A DNA stretch of 64,000 nucleotides, taken from positions 1,302,001-1,366,000 of the forward strand of contig NZ_BAABRS010000001.1 of assembly GCF_039545095.1 (NCBI RefSeq). Reading direction: 5' to 3'. The notes beneath the pieces are model-generated. The model saw only the letters and a list, made by a program, of their open reading frames with translations. It ran no database searches and was not told the origin of the DNA. The translations under genes and the position numbers were made by a program. The stretch is from Fodinibius salicampi. GTDB lineage: Bacteria > Bacteroidota > Rhodothermia > Balneolales > Balneolaceae. Every line of letters begins with the position of its first letter. Within the stretch, counting starts at the first letter, position 1. This document shows, piece by piece, positions 16,711 to 23,361 of the stretch.

Positions 16711-18225
16711 ATGAAGGTTTCAGAAGCTTTTTTAGTCAACACTAAAAACTTCGATAAAATAATCGAAGCTCTTGTAAACTATGAGGATCGAGAGTTCGTC
16801 ATAGACTCATCCCTTTTAGAAATGTTAGGCTATTCGGATCCCAATGATCTCCTTGTCGTAAGACTTCTTAAGGATTTATCTATTATTGATCAGGATGGAG
16901 AAGCCGGCAAATACTTTGATGAATTTCGTGATCCGGAAACCACAAAAAAAGCTTTGACCAGAGGAGTACTTGATGCCTATGCTCCCCTTTTCGAAAAAGA
17001 TCCGCAAATTTATAAAGCGGATATCGGTGATTTAAAGAAGGCCTTTAATGAAGTGTTTAATGGGAAAAAAACTGATTTAATTGTAAAATATATTTCTGGT
17101 ACTTTCCAGAAAATTACGAACTATTGCGGAGCTGGAACTATTGAAGCCGTAATGGACGAACGCGAAGAAGCCTTTGAAACAGAAAACGAATCGGAAGCGG
17201 AATTAGCCGTTGCCAACCATTCCTCAAATGGCATGTATCACGCAGGCCAAAACTCATCTATAGATATGGATAAAAATACCGAACACGACAGTGACAGCGG
17301 CAGTGCCAATCCCTACACCTCCAACAATACTGATAAACCTTCAAGAAATAATGATATTGGTACTGATCGAACGAGTGATTTTGAAGATTCTTCCTCTTAC
17401 GATGATAGTGAAGATCAATCGGAGGCAGATTTTGATCCGTTTGAAACGGTAGATGATGAAGGGGAAGACTTTCAAGAGAAAGAAAAAAAGAAACAAACAC
17501 AAGCAGTCGATAATGATCCTGTTGAGCTTAACACATCGCTGTCGGAAATAGACGTCAAAAAAACAGATGACGGACCGATAAATACCGCAAACGATAGCGA
17601 TCAGGAAAACCTTGTTCAGCAAGCTCTTATACGAAAGTCAGAATTGCTTCACAAGCTTCAGCGCTGGGATGAACTTATTCCTACGCTGAATAAAATTATC
17701 CAGCGATTTGATAATACTGAGCATTCCTATCTGGAGGATGTTGTTTCCCAGTCTATTGTGCGCCGGGCTTTTGTTCTTGTCAAATTAAACCGAAATGACG
17801 AGGCTTTGCCTGCATTGGATAATGTCATCAATCGATTTAAAAATGCAAGTGACCAGCAGTTTTATAATCATGCATCGGTGGCCATGCTTCACAAAGCAGA
17901 GCTATTAGAGCATGAGGAAAATTATTCTGATCTTCTCCCGCTGTATGATTCTATTATCCGGCGACTCAGCGATAATGAAAATGAACAGATCAAAGGTAAA
18001 GTTGATCGCATTTTTAACAAGCGATATGAGCTGGTTTTAGATCAGGGAACACAGGATGAAATTCTTCAGGCAAGTGAACAGCTTATTGATCGCTTTAAAA
18101 ATAACACGGAGTATCGCAATCAGCTTCAAAAAGCGATGATCAAAAAAGCTGAGATCCTGGAAGAAACTAACCGGGATGAAGAAGCACTTGAGGCTTACGA
18201 TGAATTTCTGGCTATGTTTGAGTAA
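16711..18225 (+). CDS. DUF5343-like protein with acidic linker and TPR-like repeats
   Basis: A 504-residue cytoplasmic protein of three parts. Residues 1 to about 150 resemble DUF5343, with FLVNTKNFDKIIEALVN, a LLEMLGYSDPND turn, and a hydrophobic end LIVKYISGTFQKITNYC. Residues about 155-300 are a highly acidic, Ser/Asp/Glu/Asn-rich linker that should be disordered. Residues about 300-504 hold about five TPR-like helical repeats of roughly 45 residues built on patterns such as RKSELLHKLQRWDELIPTLN and KAEILEETNRDEEALEAYDEF. TPR repeats bind other proteins, so this looks like an adaptor or scaffold. A promoter-like TTTG-N18-TATGTTAC lies at 16646-16675. It may act with the receiver protein upstream; function is unknown. 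Confidence 0.75.
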   Translation: MKVSEAFLVNTKNFDKIIEALVNYEDREFVIDSSLLEMLGYSDPNDLLVVRLLKDLSIIDQDGEAGKYFDEFRDPETTKKALTRGVLDAYAPLFEKDPQIYKADIGDLKKAFNEVFNGKKTDLIVKYISGTFQKITNYCGAGTIEAVMDEREEAFETENESEAELAVANHSSNGMYHAGQNSSIDMDKNTEHDSDSGSANPYTSNNTDKPSRNNDIGTDRTSDFEDSSSYDDSEDQSEADFDPFETVDDEGEDFQEKEKKKQTQAVDNDPVELNTSLSEIDVKKTDDGPINTANDSDQENLVQQALIRKSELLHKLQRWDELIPTLNKIIQRFDNTEHSYLEDVVSQSIVRRAFVLVKLNRNDEALPALDNVINRFKNASDQQFYNHASVAMLHKAELLEHEENYSDLLPLYDSIIRRLSDNENEQIKGKVDRIFNKRYELVLDQGTQDEILQASEQLIDRFKNNTEYRNQLQKAMIKKAEILEETNRDEEALEAYDEFLAMFE

Positions 18226-18398: not shown

Positions 18399-20192
18399 TT
18401 AAGCAGATTTTGAGGCAGAAGTAGGCAAATATTCATCTTTATACTGCAGTTCATACAGCTTGCGATAGATTCCGCCCTCTTTTTGAAGGAGCTCTTGGTG
18501 GGTACCCCGTTCACGAATTTCGCCTTTATGCATTACCAAAATCTTATCGGCTTCGTGAATGGTTGAAAGACGATGAGCAATCACAATAGAGGTTCTATTC
18601 TCCATAAGTTGATCACACACCTTATTGACAATCTCCTCGGTCTCCGAATCCACATTCGATGTGGCCTCATCCAATACCAAAATATTAGGATCATAGACCA
18701 TCGCCCTGATAAAGCAGATAAGCTGTTGCTGCCCCATTGATAATGAGGAACCGCGCTCGTTCAGCATAAAGTCGTACCCCCCGGGCAACTTCTCAATAAA
18801 GCGATCTGCCTCTATACTGCGAGCAGTCTCAATAACACGCTCTTCGGAAATATTTGGATTACCTAATGTGATGTTTTCCAAAATCGTGCCGGAAAACAAC
18901 GCATTGTCCTGCAGGACCAATGCAAAATTTGACCTTAATTCTTCAATTGTTAAATCCCGGATATCTACGCCGTCTAAAAGAATTTCCCCATCATTGATAT
19001 CATAAAAGCGCATAAGTAAATTAATAATGGTAGATTTGCCGGCGCCGGTAGCTCCCACAATAGCGACGGTTTCCCCTGCATTGGCTTCAAAGGACACATT
19101 TTTCAATACGGTTTCTTCATCATTATTGTAGCTAAACCATACATCTTTAAAGGTAATACTCCCTTCCGGGTTATCAATGTGTATAGGGTCTTTTGGATCA
19201 GTAACTTTATTCTCAGTATCCAAGACATTAAAGATACGCTCGGAAGATGCCAGAGCTGACTGAAGGGTATTGAATTTTTCCGATAGCCCGCGAATCGGTC
19301 GAAAGAAATCACGAACGTATTGAACAAAAGCCAGTAGAATACCGAACGTTACCTGATCCATCAGGGCTCGTCCGCCTCCATACCAAATTACGAGTGCCAT
19401 TGCCAGGCTCGCGATAATTTCAACGGCGGGCCAAAATATGGCAAAATAGAAAATGGTATCAATATAGGCTCCTTTATAACTGCTGTTTATAGACTCAAAT
19501 TTGCTGCGCTCCCGTTCTTCCTTATTAAAAAGCTGTACAATGGACATTCCATTAATGTGCTCCTGCACAAAGGAGTTCAGGCGTGCTATTTGATCACGAA
19601 CATTGAGGAATGCAACCCGTACTTTCGCCTTAAACAAAAAAGTAGCGTAAAACAACAGGGGCAATACAGAAATAGCTACCAGGGAAAGTTCCCAGCTCAT
19701 GCTAAACATAAAGTACAGGATAAAGAAGATGCGAAACATATCTCCCATGATATTCACTACTCCATCACTCAGCAGGTCACTGAGCGCCTCAATATCACTG
19801 GTTGTACGAGTAATGAGCCGGCCGATCGGGTTCTTATCAAAAAACTGGACATGGAGAGACTGTATTTTTTGAAATACTGCATTCCTTAAATTATATAATG
19901 TCCCCTGTCCGAACCAGCGCGTGAGGTAGGTGTTAATAACCAGCAGGATAAATTCACCAACTAGTGCTCCTAAAAGGAGTACAATTATCCATAGCAAACC
20001 CTCAAAGTCATTGTTCGCTATATAATCGTCTACCGCGATCTGAGTTAACTTTGGGCGGATGGTGCCTAAAAAGGAGGCCCCAAGCGTTAATGCTATACCC
20101 AACAGTACATACCAGCGATAGGGTCTTATAAATTGATAAAGCCGTCGAAGAAGATTAGTATCGACGGCTTTATCATTTTCTTTATTGCTCAC
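18399..20192 (-). CDS. ABC exporter half-transporter, consensus-site subunit
   Basis: A 597-residue type IV ABC exporter subunit: six membrane helices (about residues 25-300) followed by a nucleotide-binding domain. Walker A is GATGAGKS (380-387), Walker B ILVLDE with catalytic Glu509, and the switch His is in IVIAHRLS. Its signature is LSMGQ (484-488) rather than LSGGQ. It pairs logically with the subunit at 21556-23361, which has LSGGQ but lacks the catalytic Glu, as in TM287/288- or BmrCD-type heterodimers. The start is GTG at 20192, 12 bases after the RNase Z gene. Substrate is unknown: drugs or lipids are typical for the family. Confidence 0.92.
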   Translation of the reverse strand: MSNKENDKAVDTNLLRRLYQFIRPYRWYVLLGIALTLGASFLGTIRPKLTQIAVDDYIANNDFEGLLWIIVLLLGALVGEFILLVINTYLTRWFGQGTLYNLRNAVFQKIQSLHVQFFDKNPIGRLITRTTSDIEALSDLLSDGVVNIMGDMFRIFFILYFMFSMSWELSLVAISVLPLLFYATFLFKAKVRVAFLNVRDQIARLNSFVQEHINGMSIVQLFNKEERERSKFESINSSYKGAYIDTIFYFAIFWPAVEIIASLAMALVIWYGGGRALMDQVTFGILLAFVQYVRDFFRPIRGLSEKFNTLQSALASSERIFNVLDTENKVTDPKDPIHIDNPEGSITFKDVWFSYNNDEETVLKNVSFEANAGETVAIVGATGAGKSTIINLLMRFYDINDGEILLDGVDIRDLTIEELRSNFALVLQDNALFSGTILENITLGNPNISEERVIETARSIEADRFIEKLPGGYDFMLNERGSSLSMGQQQLICFIRAMVYDPNILVLDEATSNVDSETEEIVNKVCDQLMENRTSIVIAHRLSTIHEADKILVMHKGEIRERGTHQELLQKEGGIYRKLYELQYKDEYLPTSASKSA

Positions 20193-20204
20193 ACTACTAT
20201 TTGT

Positions 20205-21470
20205 TTAGAAGCGATCGAAATCATCAAATGGAGTTCGCGGCGTAATCTGTCTTGGCTTACGCTCATTATTATCCTTACTTCCTCCATTGTTATTGTTGTT
20301 ATTATTATTGGAAGAAGACTTTTTAGATCGGCTACTTCTGCTGCTACGAGAGCTGCTGCTCTTACTACTGCTACTGCTCTTCCGGCTGCGAGATGAGGAT
20401 GTTTTTTTCCTCTTTCTCATGCGACGCTTCTTTTTCTTGCCTCCTCGCTTGTTTCGCTTGGATTTGCTGCCGCCTCCGCCGCTGTTACTATCTCCTTTAT
20501 TTTGGTTAATCTCTTTGAGATAAACCTTTGGCTCAATAATACCTTTCTCATGAGCCGGATCAGTAAATATCGGTCGAAGCTCTGTAGCAACCCATGTTGG
20601 GAAGAAATCATCCCGGGCCTCACGCAGAAGCACATATTCATTGGTGTAACGGGCTGAAAAATGGGTGATAACCAGAAGCTTTGTCTTAGCCTCATTTGCC
20701 ACACGGGCAGCATCTTTAGCTGTTGAATGTCCCGTCTCCTCTGCTTTATCAGAAAGACTCTCATTAAAGGTAGCCTCGTGAATCAATACATTCGTATTCT
20801 TAGCTAACTTAACAGAGTTAGGACAATATTTGGTATCCGTTATATAGGCAAAGCTATCACCAGGACGCGGATGCCCTACAATATCGGCAGACTTAACTAC
20901 CGTACCATCTTCGAGCTCTACATCCTTGCCGTCTTTAAGATCTTTGTACTGCCAGTCTTCACTAATACCCTGCTCTTGGGCTTTCTCGGCATCAACCTTG
21001 CCGGGTCGATCTTTTTCCTGCAAGCGATAGCCGATACAGAACTTTGTATGATTCAGAGGTCGTGCCTCTACATAATATTCATCGGCATCAACAACGCGCT
21101 CGCTTTCAAAATCTTCATCTAGCTCCACATACTTAATATCATAACTCAGGCTGATATTGGAAAAATCAAAATTAAATTCTATGAACTCCTGAAGTCCTTC
21201 CGGACCAACCAGAGTAATTTCCCGGTCTCTCCTTTGGAGCTGCAAAGTGGAAAGCAATCCAATCAGACCGGAATAATGGTCTGTATCGAAATGTGAAATA
21301 AAGATGTAATCAATTTGAGACCGCTTTAAGCCCCCTTGAAGCATTCTCATCTGAGCATTTTCTCCACAGTCAAAGAGAAAAACGCTCCCTTCTCTCCAAA
21401 CAGCTACTGATGATAAATGACGTGTTGCCGTGGGTGTCGCTGAAGCTACACCTAATGGTACGATAATCAT
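20205..21470 (-). CDS. rnz: RNase Z-like MBL-fold nuclease with long Ser/Arg/Asn tail
   Basis: tRNA 3'-processing endonuclease family, 421 residues against about 310 usually. Residues 1-320 are the metallo-beta-lactamase fold with family landmarks: PLGVASATPTATRHLSS, DCGENAQMRM, His141, Asp212 (ITDTKYCPN), His248 (GHSTA) and His270 (ITHFSARY). The first metal motif is HFDTDH (60-65) instead of HLHGDH, so one His is replaced by Asp. Residues about 323-421 are an added disordered tail: Gly-rich, then Lys/Arg-rich, then Ser/Arg repeats, then eight Asn in a row. The tail may bind RNA or drive condensation. The gene lies between the two halves of an ABC exporter, all on the minus strand. Confidence 0.88.
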   Translation of the reverse strand: MIIVPLGVASATPTATRHLSSVAVWREGSVFLFDCGENAQMRMLQGGLKRSQIDYIFISHFDTDHYSGLIGLLSTLQLQRRDREITLVGPEGLQEFIEFNFDFSNISLSYDIKYVELDEDFESERVVDADEYYVEARPLNHTKFCIGYRLQEKDRPGKVDAEKAQEQGISEDWQYKDLKDGKDVELEDGTVVKSADIVGHPRPGDSFAYITDTKYCPNSVKLAKNTNVLIHEATFNESLSDKAEETGHSTAKDAARVANEAKTKLLVITHFSARYTNEYVLLREARDDFFPTWVATELRPIFTDPAHEKGIIEPKVYLKEINQNKGDSNSGGGGSKSKRNKRGGKKKKRRMRKRKKTSSSRSRKSSSSSKSSSSRSSRSSRSKKSSSNNNNNNNNGGSKDNNERKPRQITPRTPFDDFDRF

Positions 21471-21555
21471 GATTTAACTCCTATGTCTTTTTTTCAGATC
21501 TTACTGCGATCAAGCAGCAGATCTTATAAGGTTATAATTTTACTATTTTGTTTTT

Positions 21556-23361
21556 TTAGATTTCGGCCAACTCTTCTTCTATGAGTTGTTTATTGTACAT
21601 AACTGAATAACGACCTTCTTTATTTAATAATTCTTCATGTGTTCCTTGTTCTACAATAGTCCCATTTTCCATATAATATATAATATCTGCATCTTTTATC
21701 GTAGATATACGATGACTGATCATCAATGTTGTTCGTCCTTGCAATTCTTTACGGAGATGTCGGAGAATAGATTCTTCTGTTTTAGTATCTACAGCACTTA
21801 ATGAGTCATCTAATATAATAATTTTAGGATCTCGAATCAGGGCTCGAGCAATAGCAGTTCGTTGTTTTTGACCGCCGGATAACGTAATCCCTCTTTCTCC
21901 TAACATAGTCTCAAATTTCTTTTCAAAATCCAAAATATTTTCACGAACCTGAGCCTTTTCTGCAGCAGTCTCAATTTCTTCTTTGTTGGCGTCTTCGGTA
22001 CCGAATGCGATATTTTCGCCAATCGTATCTGAAAATAAGAAAGTATCCTGTGGTACCAACCCAATGTTCTTACGTAATATCTCTAAGGGAATTGCCTTAA
22101 TATCCGTTCCATCAATTAATATTTTTCCTTCCGTCGCATCAAAAAGACGTGGAATGAGTTCTACAAGAGTGGTCTTCCCACTGCCCGTACGGCCTACTAT
22201 GGCTGCATTTTGGCCTGCTTCAATTTTTAGATTAATATTTTTTAACACATGCTCATCTGCTTCCGGATAAGAAAAAGAAACATTCCTGAATTCAATGCTT
22301 CCCTCAATTTCAGTAATATCATGCTTGGTACTTTCTTTATCAGCTATATCAATATCTTCGGTTAGCATTTCATCAATCCGCTTCCACGATGCCATAGATT
22401 GTTGATAGCGATTAACGGTATACCCAAGAGAAGCGACCGGCCAGGTCAAATAGGCCACATAAATTATAAATTCCATAATGTTACCAACAGTCAGTGTTCC
22501 CTCTATGACCATTTGGCCCGCTTTCCAAACAACGATTATTACCGAAAGACCAATCAATAGGTTAAGAGTTGGATGAAAAAGAGACTCCACCAAATCGAGG
22601 CGCAACTTTTTCTTGCGATATCGTTCGCTTTCGTGTTCAAAACGACCGTTTTCATACTCTTCGCGATTATAGGCTTTAATCAGCCTTATACTTGTAAAAG
22701 ACTCTTGGGCTCGCCCTGCAATGGTAGAATATTGTTCCTGAATTATCCGGGAATAATCATTGATATATCCACTTACCCAATAAGCAAAAGCAGAGAGAAA
22801 AGGGAGCGGAAGTAAAGCCCAAAGCGTCAATTCCGGACTTACAATAATCATCATTGTAATAATAAAACCTGCTCTTGTTAACGTATTAATGGTATACATA
22901 TAAGCAGGTCCAAAGTATTCCCGGACTTTAGATACATCTTCTGTAGCACGGACATAAATTTCACCGGAATCGTAACTGCTATAAAAACGCTGGGGTAGTT
23001 TTAGGAGCTTGTCAAAAATATCGTTTCTCAGATCGTACTCTATTTTACGGGAAGCGACTATAAGGGTTTGACGAGTAGCAAAGAGCAATACGCCCGATAG
23101 TACCACCGCTCCCACTAACAACAAAGCATTTTTTGCCAGAAGCCAGCTTGCATCACTACTGAATAGTAGTTCAAAAATATTGCCAAAACTTTCTGAAGAC
23201 CGGTCAAGTTCTATCTCTGTTACCTGGTCCACCGTTCGGCGTAAATAAACAGGTATCCAGACCAAGAAAAAATTGGATGCTGTCAAAAACAACGATCCAA
23301 GAATGATGGTCCCCTTATACTTTTTAAAATACCTATTTAACTTACGTAGTGAACCCACCAA
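21556..23361 (-). CDS. ABC exporter half-transporter, degenerate-site subunit
   Basis: A 601-residue half-transporter with six membrane helices (about residues 18-320) and an ATPase domain. Walker A is GRTGSGKT (390-397), the signature is LSGGQ (494-498), and Walker B is IIILDD, where Asp519 replaces the catalytic Glu. This is the pattern of the degenerate subunit in heterodimeric exporters such as TM287; the subunit at 18399-20192 should supply the active site. The frame begins TTG (23361), immediately followed by GTG (23358), and no ATG is nearby, so it has a non-ATG start. The RNase Z gene follows after 85 bases. Confidence 0.92.
   Translation of the reverse strand: MVGSLRKLNRYFKKYKGTIILGSLFLTASNFFLVWIPVYLRRTVDQVTEIELDRSSESFGNIFELLFSSDASWLLAKNALLLVGAVVLSGVLLFATRQTLIVASRKIEYDLRNDIFDKLLKLPQRFYSSYDSGEIYVRATEDVSKVREYFGPAYMYTINTLTRAGFIITMMIIVSPELTLWALLPLPFLSAFAYWVSGYINDYSRIIQEQYSTIAGRAQESFTSIRLIKAYNREEYENGRFEHESERYRKKKLRLDLVESLFHPTLNLLIGLSVIIVVWKAGQMVIEGTLTVGNIMEFIIYVAYLTWPVASLGYTVNRYQQSMASWKRIDEMLTEDIDIADKESTKHDITEIEGSIEFRNVSFSYPEADEHVLKNINLKIEAGQNAAIVGRTGSGKTTLVELIPRLFDATEGKILIDGTDIKAIPLEILRKNIGLVPQDTFLFSDTIGENIAFGTEDANKEEIETAAEKAQVRENILDFEKKFETMLGERGITLSGGQKQRTAIARALIRDPKIIILDDSLSAVDTKTEESILRHLRKELQGRTTLMISHRISTIKDADIIYYMENGTIVEQGTHEELLNKEGRYSVMYNKQLIEEELAEI

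Follow-up and report, generated by a model that had tools for sequence, protein, structure and literature searches.

To our knowledge, bacterial RNase Z is a compact homodimer without added scaffold parts. The short-form enzymes of Escherichia coli (ZipD, 2cbn) and Bacillus subtilis (1y44 and 2fk6) have a core fold and an order of motifs in common with the Balneolales protein described here, which differs from them in having HxDxDH in place of HxHxDH, Asn38 in place of Gly, and an extra tail of approximately 90-240 residues. A search of one literature collection, mostly at listing level, found no report of a bacterial RNase Z with a tail, nor any that dealt with the RNase Z of Balneolales. The tail resembles the scaffold region of RNase E, which is a disordered, Arg-rich C-terminal region bearing short motifs, one of them at the very end (PMC10989914 and PMC11964227, available excerpts). 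PNPase binds the extreme C-terminus of RNase E in E. coli, Caulobacter, and Anabaena, according to the excerpted text of PMC10989914, and Arg-rich motifs bind RNA and drive the formation of foci, according to that of PMC11964227. The likeness is one of organisation, however, as the catalytic domain is unrelated and no sequence likeness is claimed. The SSB tip (DDDIPF; PMC5872125, excerpt) is similar in that it closes a disordered tail with a free Phe preceded by acidic residues. Rho from Bacteroides, an RNA enzyme from the same phylum, also has a disordered region in which short charged motifs are conserved (PMC13269538, excerpt), but these motifs do not form a C-terminal tip, and condensation has been shown for Rho.

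RNase Z gene and distribution of the tail

The rnz gene of Fodinibius salicampi lies at 20205..21470 on the minus strand of the window, which is the whole stretch of 64,000 nucleotides that was analysed, and its intact frame encodes a 421-residue RNase Z orthologue with a C-terminal tail. The protein scores 320.4 bits against the NCBIfam model TIGR02651 (cut-off 292.95) over residues 4-297, and so belongs to the RNase Z family. In an AlphaFold2 model, residues 1-317 (20520..21470, minus strand) form the folded RNase Z core, and the top Foldseek match of the model is 2fk6_A, the B. subtilis RNase Z/tRNA complex (E 4.2e-32). The RNase Z exosite arm is present in the core between motifs III and IV, and its PPGP motif is replaced by SEDW. 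The tail is unlikely to compensate for the lost PPGP, since PPGP is also missing in 7/8 tailless outgroups of the same class. The nearest named rnz loci are those of Fodinibius sediminis, F. salsisoli, F. roseus, F. halophilus, and Aliifodinibius. As a rule, a Balneolales genome possesses one RNase Z gene. The MAG CSSed165cm_239 carries two different RNase Z genes (L236 and L239), each with the tip ITPRTPFDDIDRL, and this pair may represent two strains in one bin.

The Balneolales dataset consisted of 97 loci, one per genome, from which three fragments and one contig-end truncation were excluded to leave 93, one of them with a broken start. A tail of 87-237 residues (median 109) with a net charge of +9 to +39 (median +17) is present in all 93 of these orthologues, each of which has a complete C-terminus. 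It is also present in 77/77 measurable named loci (80 in total, two of which run off the contig and one of which has a broken frame), a set that overlaps with the 93 orthologues and is therefore not independent of them. Among a further 20 stretches, 19/19 uncut genes are tailed and possess both the tip and HxDxDH. RNase Z was matched in 90/92 genomes of the family sample, and in 66/66 of those of good quality. All 47 outgroup orthologues (8/8 and 39/39), which represent other orders and classes of one phylum only, are tailless and end within approximately 45 residues of the core. In a maximum-likelihood tree built from the core sequences of 73 orthologues, 26 from Balneolales and 47 from outside the order, a single branch with support of 100/100 separates all 26 Balneolales sequences from the rest, and the tail therefore has one origin on this tree. 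The two nearest tailless sequences (f7) join Balneolales with support of 92/86, which is under the mark set by the tool. Within the genus the tail is open in 12/12 genomes, which, together with the tailed orthologues elsewhere in the order, rules out a slippage artefact or a frame error and removes the reservation of the first-pass annotation that the tail might be missing in close relatives and the frame disrupted by a sequencing error.

The rnz gene is flanked by two ABC half-transporter genes, and all three have the same orientation (18399-23361). The downstream gene (18399..20192, minus strand) has its listed start 12 bases past the rnz stop, and the upstream gene of the same neighbourhood lies at 21556..23361 (minus strand). 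ABC matches are found on both sides of rnz in 55/55 named loci over 8.5 kb, and beside rnz in 7/7 loci of other Balneolales families and in 29/48 outgroup loci (one of the 48 being without rnz); none adjoins rnz in 18 loci from further families of the phylum. ABC-rnz-ABC is an old neighbourhood and not evidence of a functional link, nor does it explain the tail, as ABC genes adjoin rnz in tailless relatives of the same class too. Positions 16711-18225 on the plus strand encode a 504-residue protein with, by eye, an acidic, Asp/Ser/Glu/Asn-rich and probably disordered middle of approximately 120 residues followed by a helical-repeat-like part. Relatives of this protein lie downstream of rnz in 3/55 named loci, within their flanks.

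Composition and conserved motifs of the tail

The tail comprises residues 318-421 (approximately 104 residues; 20208..20519, minus strand) and is disordered and basic, as judged from its composition and from a pLDDT below 50 throughout the region in the AlphaFold2 model, with block means of 31-41 from residue 321 onward. This agrees with the first-pass annotation, which placed an RNase Z with a disordered tail at 20205-20515; the 421-residue frame found there indeed runs through Gly, Lys/Arg, and Ser/Arg stretches into eight consecutive Asn. The Asn8 run (residues 388-395; 20286..20309, minus strand) also mixes synonymous codons as described (AAT AAT AAT AAC AAC AAT AAC AAT), but the proposal that such mixing reflects maintenance of the runs at the protein level was not borne out, as the runs differ between species whereas the positive charge and two motifs stay. 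Asn8 is unique to this genome among 12 genus members, the longest Asn run being 3-5 residues in the other 11. Since the Asn run varies within the genus, mixed codons are no argument for selection on the runs, and they would count against very recent slippage only.

The filler of the tail is composed of Ser, Lys, Arg, and Asn in this genus, and RGG and YDNRGG repeats occur in families f2-f4 and genera g5 and g10. Across orthologues, a long tail and its positive charge are kept order-wide, while the Ser/Arg/Asn runs turn over. The suggested likeness to an RS domain was rejected for this protein by dipeptide count: the tail has nine RS/SR dipeptides with a coverage of 13%, the shuffle mean is 6.8, and 192/1000 shuffles reach nine. 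Of seven tails tested for RS/SR enrichment, that of L002 alone stood out (4/1000 shuffles), and a guessed DNA pattern for the Ser/Arg codons gave no match. Overall, a real, long-lived, basic, and disordered tail is supported, and RNA binding or tethering is a plausible role for it.

Two motifs are conserved within the tail. The first is a basic box, KKKKRRMRKRKK, at residues 345-356 (20403..20438, minus strand), which is captured by the pattern [FYMLV][RI]xR[KR]. Its commonest form in the family is FRKRK, and the form in this protein is MRKRK. The pattern is present in 157/171 tails from both sets, compared with 233/3420 shuffled tails (7%), and some of the 12 tails inspected among the 14 that lack it carry RFKRK instead.

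The second motif is the C-terminal tip, ITPRTPFDDFDRF, at residues 409-421 (20208..20246, minus strand). No other part of the tail is as well conserved as these final 13 residues, the main point that the first-pass annotation overlooked. The tip is identical in 12/12 genus members, and its codons exhibit a pS of 0.78 and a pN of 0.003 within the genus (pN/pS given as 0.003), compared with a pS of 0.73, a pN of 0.054, and a pN/pS of 0.073 for core codons 1-100. Since the tip has almost saturated synonymous sites but an unchanged peptide within the genus, a DNA-level constraint associated with its position 12 bases before the next gene is ruled out, and protein-level selection on the tip is shown within the genus. 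The strong contrast holds at that level; order-wide, the tip and core codons 1-100 have similar pN/pS values (0.163 and 0.202, respectively), a small contrast obtained with synonymous sites saturated, g2 diverged, and core codons paired without gaps.

All 93 Balneolales tips end in [D/N]R[F/L], and the entire motif is present in 84/93. Of the nine tips without the entire motif, eight come from genus g2 and one from g4, each from a different genome. In g2, which is Balneola-type, the tip has decayed in 8/8 genomes to forms such as RSRSSYRDQDRF, namely RSSYRDQDRF or RSSYDDHDRF forms (L045, L061, L063, L064, L069, L077, L078, and L085), and the basic tail stays. Strict dependence on the tip is therefore not universal in the order.

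A profile search with the tip in this genome recovered RNase Z and then only a partial match at E 0.73. A degenerate DNA pattern of the tip gave exactly one match in 25/28 genomes, with no matches for the reversed control, and two of the three genomes missed (both f3) carry Glu in the tip, which the pattern does not permit. Across the order, the tip profile found matches in 110/126 genomes and a single match in 108, and the 16 genomes without a match comprise eight of g2 and eight that are 80-89% complete. Of 23 further tip matches that were retrieved, 19 lie at the end of an RNase Z gene, and the other four, which include both second tip matches, are cut by contig ends. The tip matches already known from f1-f4 sit at RNase Z positions, and L130-L132 contain RNase Z. 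The tip was thus found on RNase Z alone and not seen as a common address on a set of proteins. Basic C-terminal regions do occur elsewhere in this genome: a helicase (L290; 468-residue frame with a DEAD match) has a Lys/Arg/Asn-rich end of approximately 60 residues without the RNase Z tip, and the RNase E/G (L293) is short, with a 587-residue frame and a basic tail of approximately 40 residues ending NSKYYKN.

Metal site and probable tRNA trimming

Motif II of RNase Z holds metal ligands. This motif reads HFDTDH in the present protein (residues 60-65; 21276..21293, minus strand), where Asp62 replaces the second His of HxHxDH. Asp62 is present in 96/96 Balneolales (HxDxDH in 93/93 of L001-L097 with the motif visible, which it is not in 4/97, and in 3/3 of L130-L132), whereas His is present in 47/47 others. 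A scan of the core for order-specific residues, defined as those found in at least 93% of the 96 Balneolales, replaced by another residue in at least 70% of the 47 others, and shared by less than 25% of these, gave three positions: Asn38 for Gly, Asp62 for His, and the conservative Ile268. Asn38, which sits within FDCGEN (21357..21359, minus strand), is found in 95/96 Balneolales and corresponds to Gly in 45/47 others, and position 38 presumably lies near the metals, in motif I. The origin of the tail coincides on the tree with both the Asp62 and Asn38 changes, and His141 is invariant. The canonical RNase Z site, HxHxDH, is absent from the Balneolales protein; because motif II is instead HxDxDH, the protein is classed, on sequence grounds, as a variant RNase Z orthologue and not as a canonical RNase Z.

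A comparable substitution is found in ComEC, whose metallo-beta-lactamase domain binds Mn2+ rather than Zn2+ and has Asp for one motif II His, with D611 and D613 fitting HxDxDH (PMC8579336, available excerpt). ComEC belongs to another family, and its motif III His is replaced as well, by Asn, whereas Balneolales RNase Z keeps His141. By analogy, the metal preference of Balneolales RNase Z has perhaps shifted toward Mn2+.

It is very likely that the enzyme still trims pre-tRNA. The RNase Z protein, used as a query, is its own sole match in this genome, and most of the tRNA genes are CCA-less, so tRNA trimming probably persists. The genome contains 40 tRNA matches, and 29 of the 31 genes read lack an encoded CCA, which is consistent with a need for RNase Z. 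PF12706 matches 10 stretches in the genome, two of which are within rnz, indicating that other proteins with a metallo-beta-lactamase fold exist.

Possible roles of the tail and tip

At slightly less than an even chance, the tail is proposed to be a disordered tether that would hold RNA and carry a C-terminal docking motif, organised like the tail of RNase E; the Balneolales tail has the same combination of a disordered basic C-terminal region and conserved motifs, one of which is terminal. RNase Z would have gained this tail at the stem of Balneolales while the metal site changed. The tail is expected to hold RNA because it is long, basic, and disordered and has a conserved basic box, and together with the FRxRK-like box it would probably keep RNA, either pre-tRNA or RNA on the ribosome, close to the enzyme through non-specific electrostatic contacts. 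The filler may be Ser/Lys/Asn-rich or RGG/YDNRGG-rich, provided that it is long, disordered, and positive. The tip is expected to enter a pocket because it is short, unique, strongly kept, and equipped with a free Phe, and it may dock in trans on one protein partner, possibly another RNA-processing enzyme, in the way that the C-terminal motifs of RNase E bring PNPase. Its sequence is not that of an SSB-Ct peptide with a terminal D-D-D-x-P-F: the SSB of this genome ends in DDDLPF, whereas the RNase Z tip ends in DDFDRF, lacks Pro, has Arg before the Phe, and additionally possesses a conserved ITPRTP. In the AlphaFold2 monomer the tip is not docked (pLDDT ~41), which lends no support to docking on its own monomer and says nothing for or against a partner in trans. 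Alternative roles for a conserved C-terminus could be stability or protection from proteolysis.

The tip, which is acidic-aromatic and terminates a strongly basic chain, could also be autoregulatory, folding onto the basic tail or onto the other subunit of the dimer and thereby gating RNA access or condensation. The RNA-driven condensation of BtRho is governed by charged motifs that are conserved, and its acidic motifs contact basic ones in simulations (PMC13269538, as excerpted). Autoregulation is nonetheless unlikely, as the AlphaFold2 monomer is without such docking and pure electrostatics would not require an identical tip in 12/12 genus members. The shift in composition across the order between Ser/Lys/Arg/Asn and RGG/YDNRGG is that of a bulk property, as would suit a tail (RGG/SR/Asn-rich) whose chief role is to form condensates or to concentrate RNA, with the tip as a minor stabilising cap, for which Rho in Bacteroides provides a precedent (PMC10284900, excerpt); this is quite unlikely, however, because constraint within the genus lies on the tip and not on the filler.

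The main novelty could instead be the metal site, in which case the protein would be a phosphodiesterase of the Mn2+ type that acts on changed substrates, and the tail would be a consequence of that change. The separation of Asp62 and Asn38 in Balneolales from His and Gly outside the order favours this, as do the association of the motif II Asp residues of ComEC with Mn2+ binding (PMC8579336, excerpt) and the ability of RNase Z to remove AMP from proteins (PMC12663964, excerpt), and the other metallo-beta-lactamase-fold proteins of the genome make another tRNA-trimming enzyme possible. It is still improbable, given the single RNase Z match and the mostly CCA-less tRNA genes, from which tRNA trimming probably persists. 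Neutral accretion of low-complexity sequence by slippage, tolerated at the gene end, would account for the fast variation of runs in the genus but is extremely improbable, being largely refuted by conservation of the tip, together with that of the box and the retention of the tail across the order.

Under the preferred reading of a tether with a docking tip, the decay of the g2 tip with the basic tail kept constitutes a natural test of the docking idea, and the 13-residue tip offers a handle by which a partner could be found. A further and doubtful extension is that Balneolales RNase Z is the scaffold of a hitherto undescribed RNA-processing assembly, with a tail and tip that recruit a partner and a Mn2+-preferring HxDxDH site. 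If this is true, the partner could be, for example, an exonuclease such as PNPase, or the ribosome, and its recruitment would couple tRNA 3' maturation to other steps. The Asp62/Asn38 pair offers a naturally occurring test of how a widespread tRNA enzyme selects its metal, and the order-wide tail, the kept tip, and the two core substitutions, one of them at a metal ligand, point to a tRNA-processing assembly or to regulation in Balneolales.
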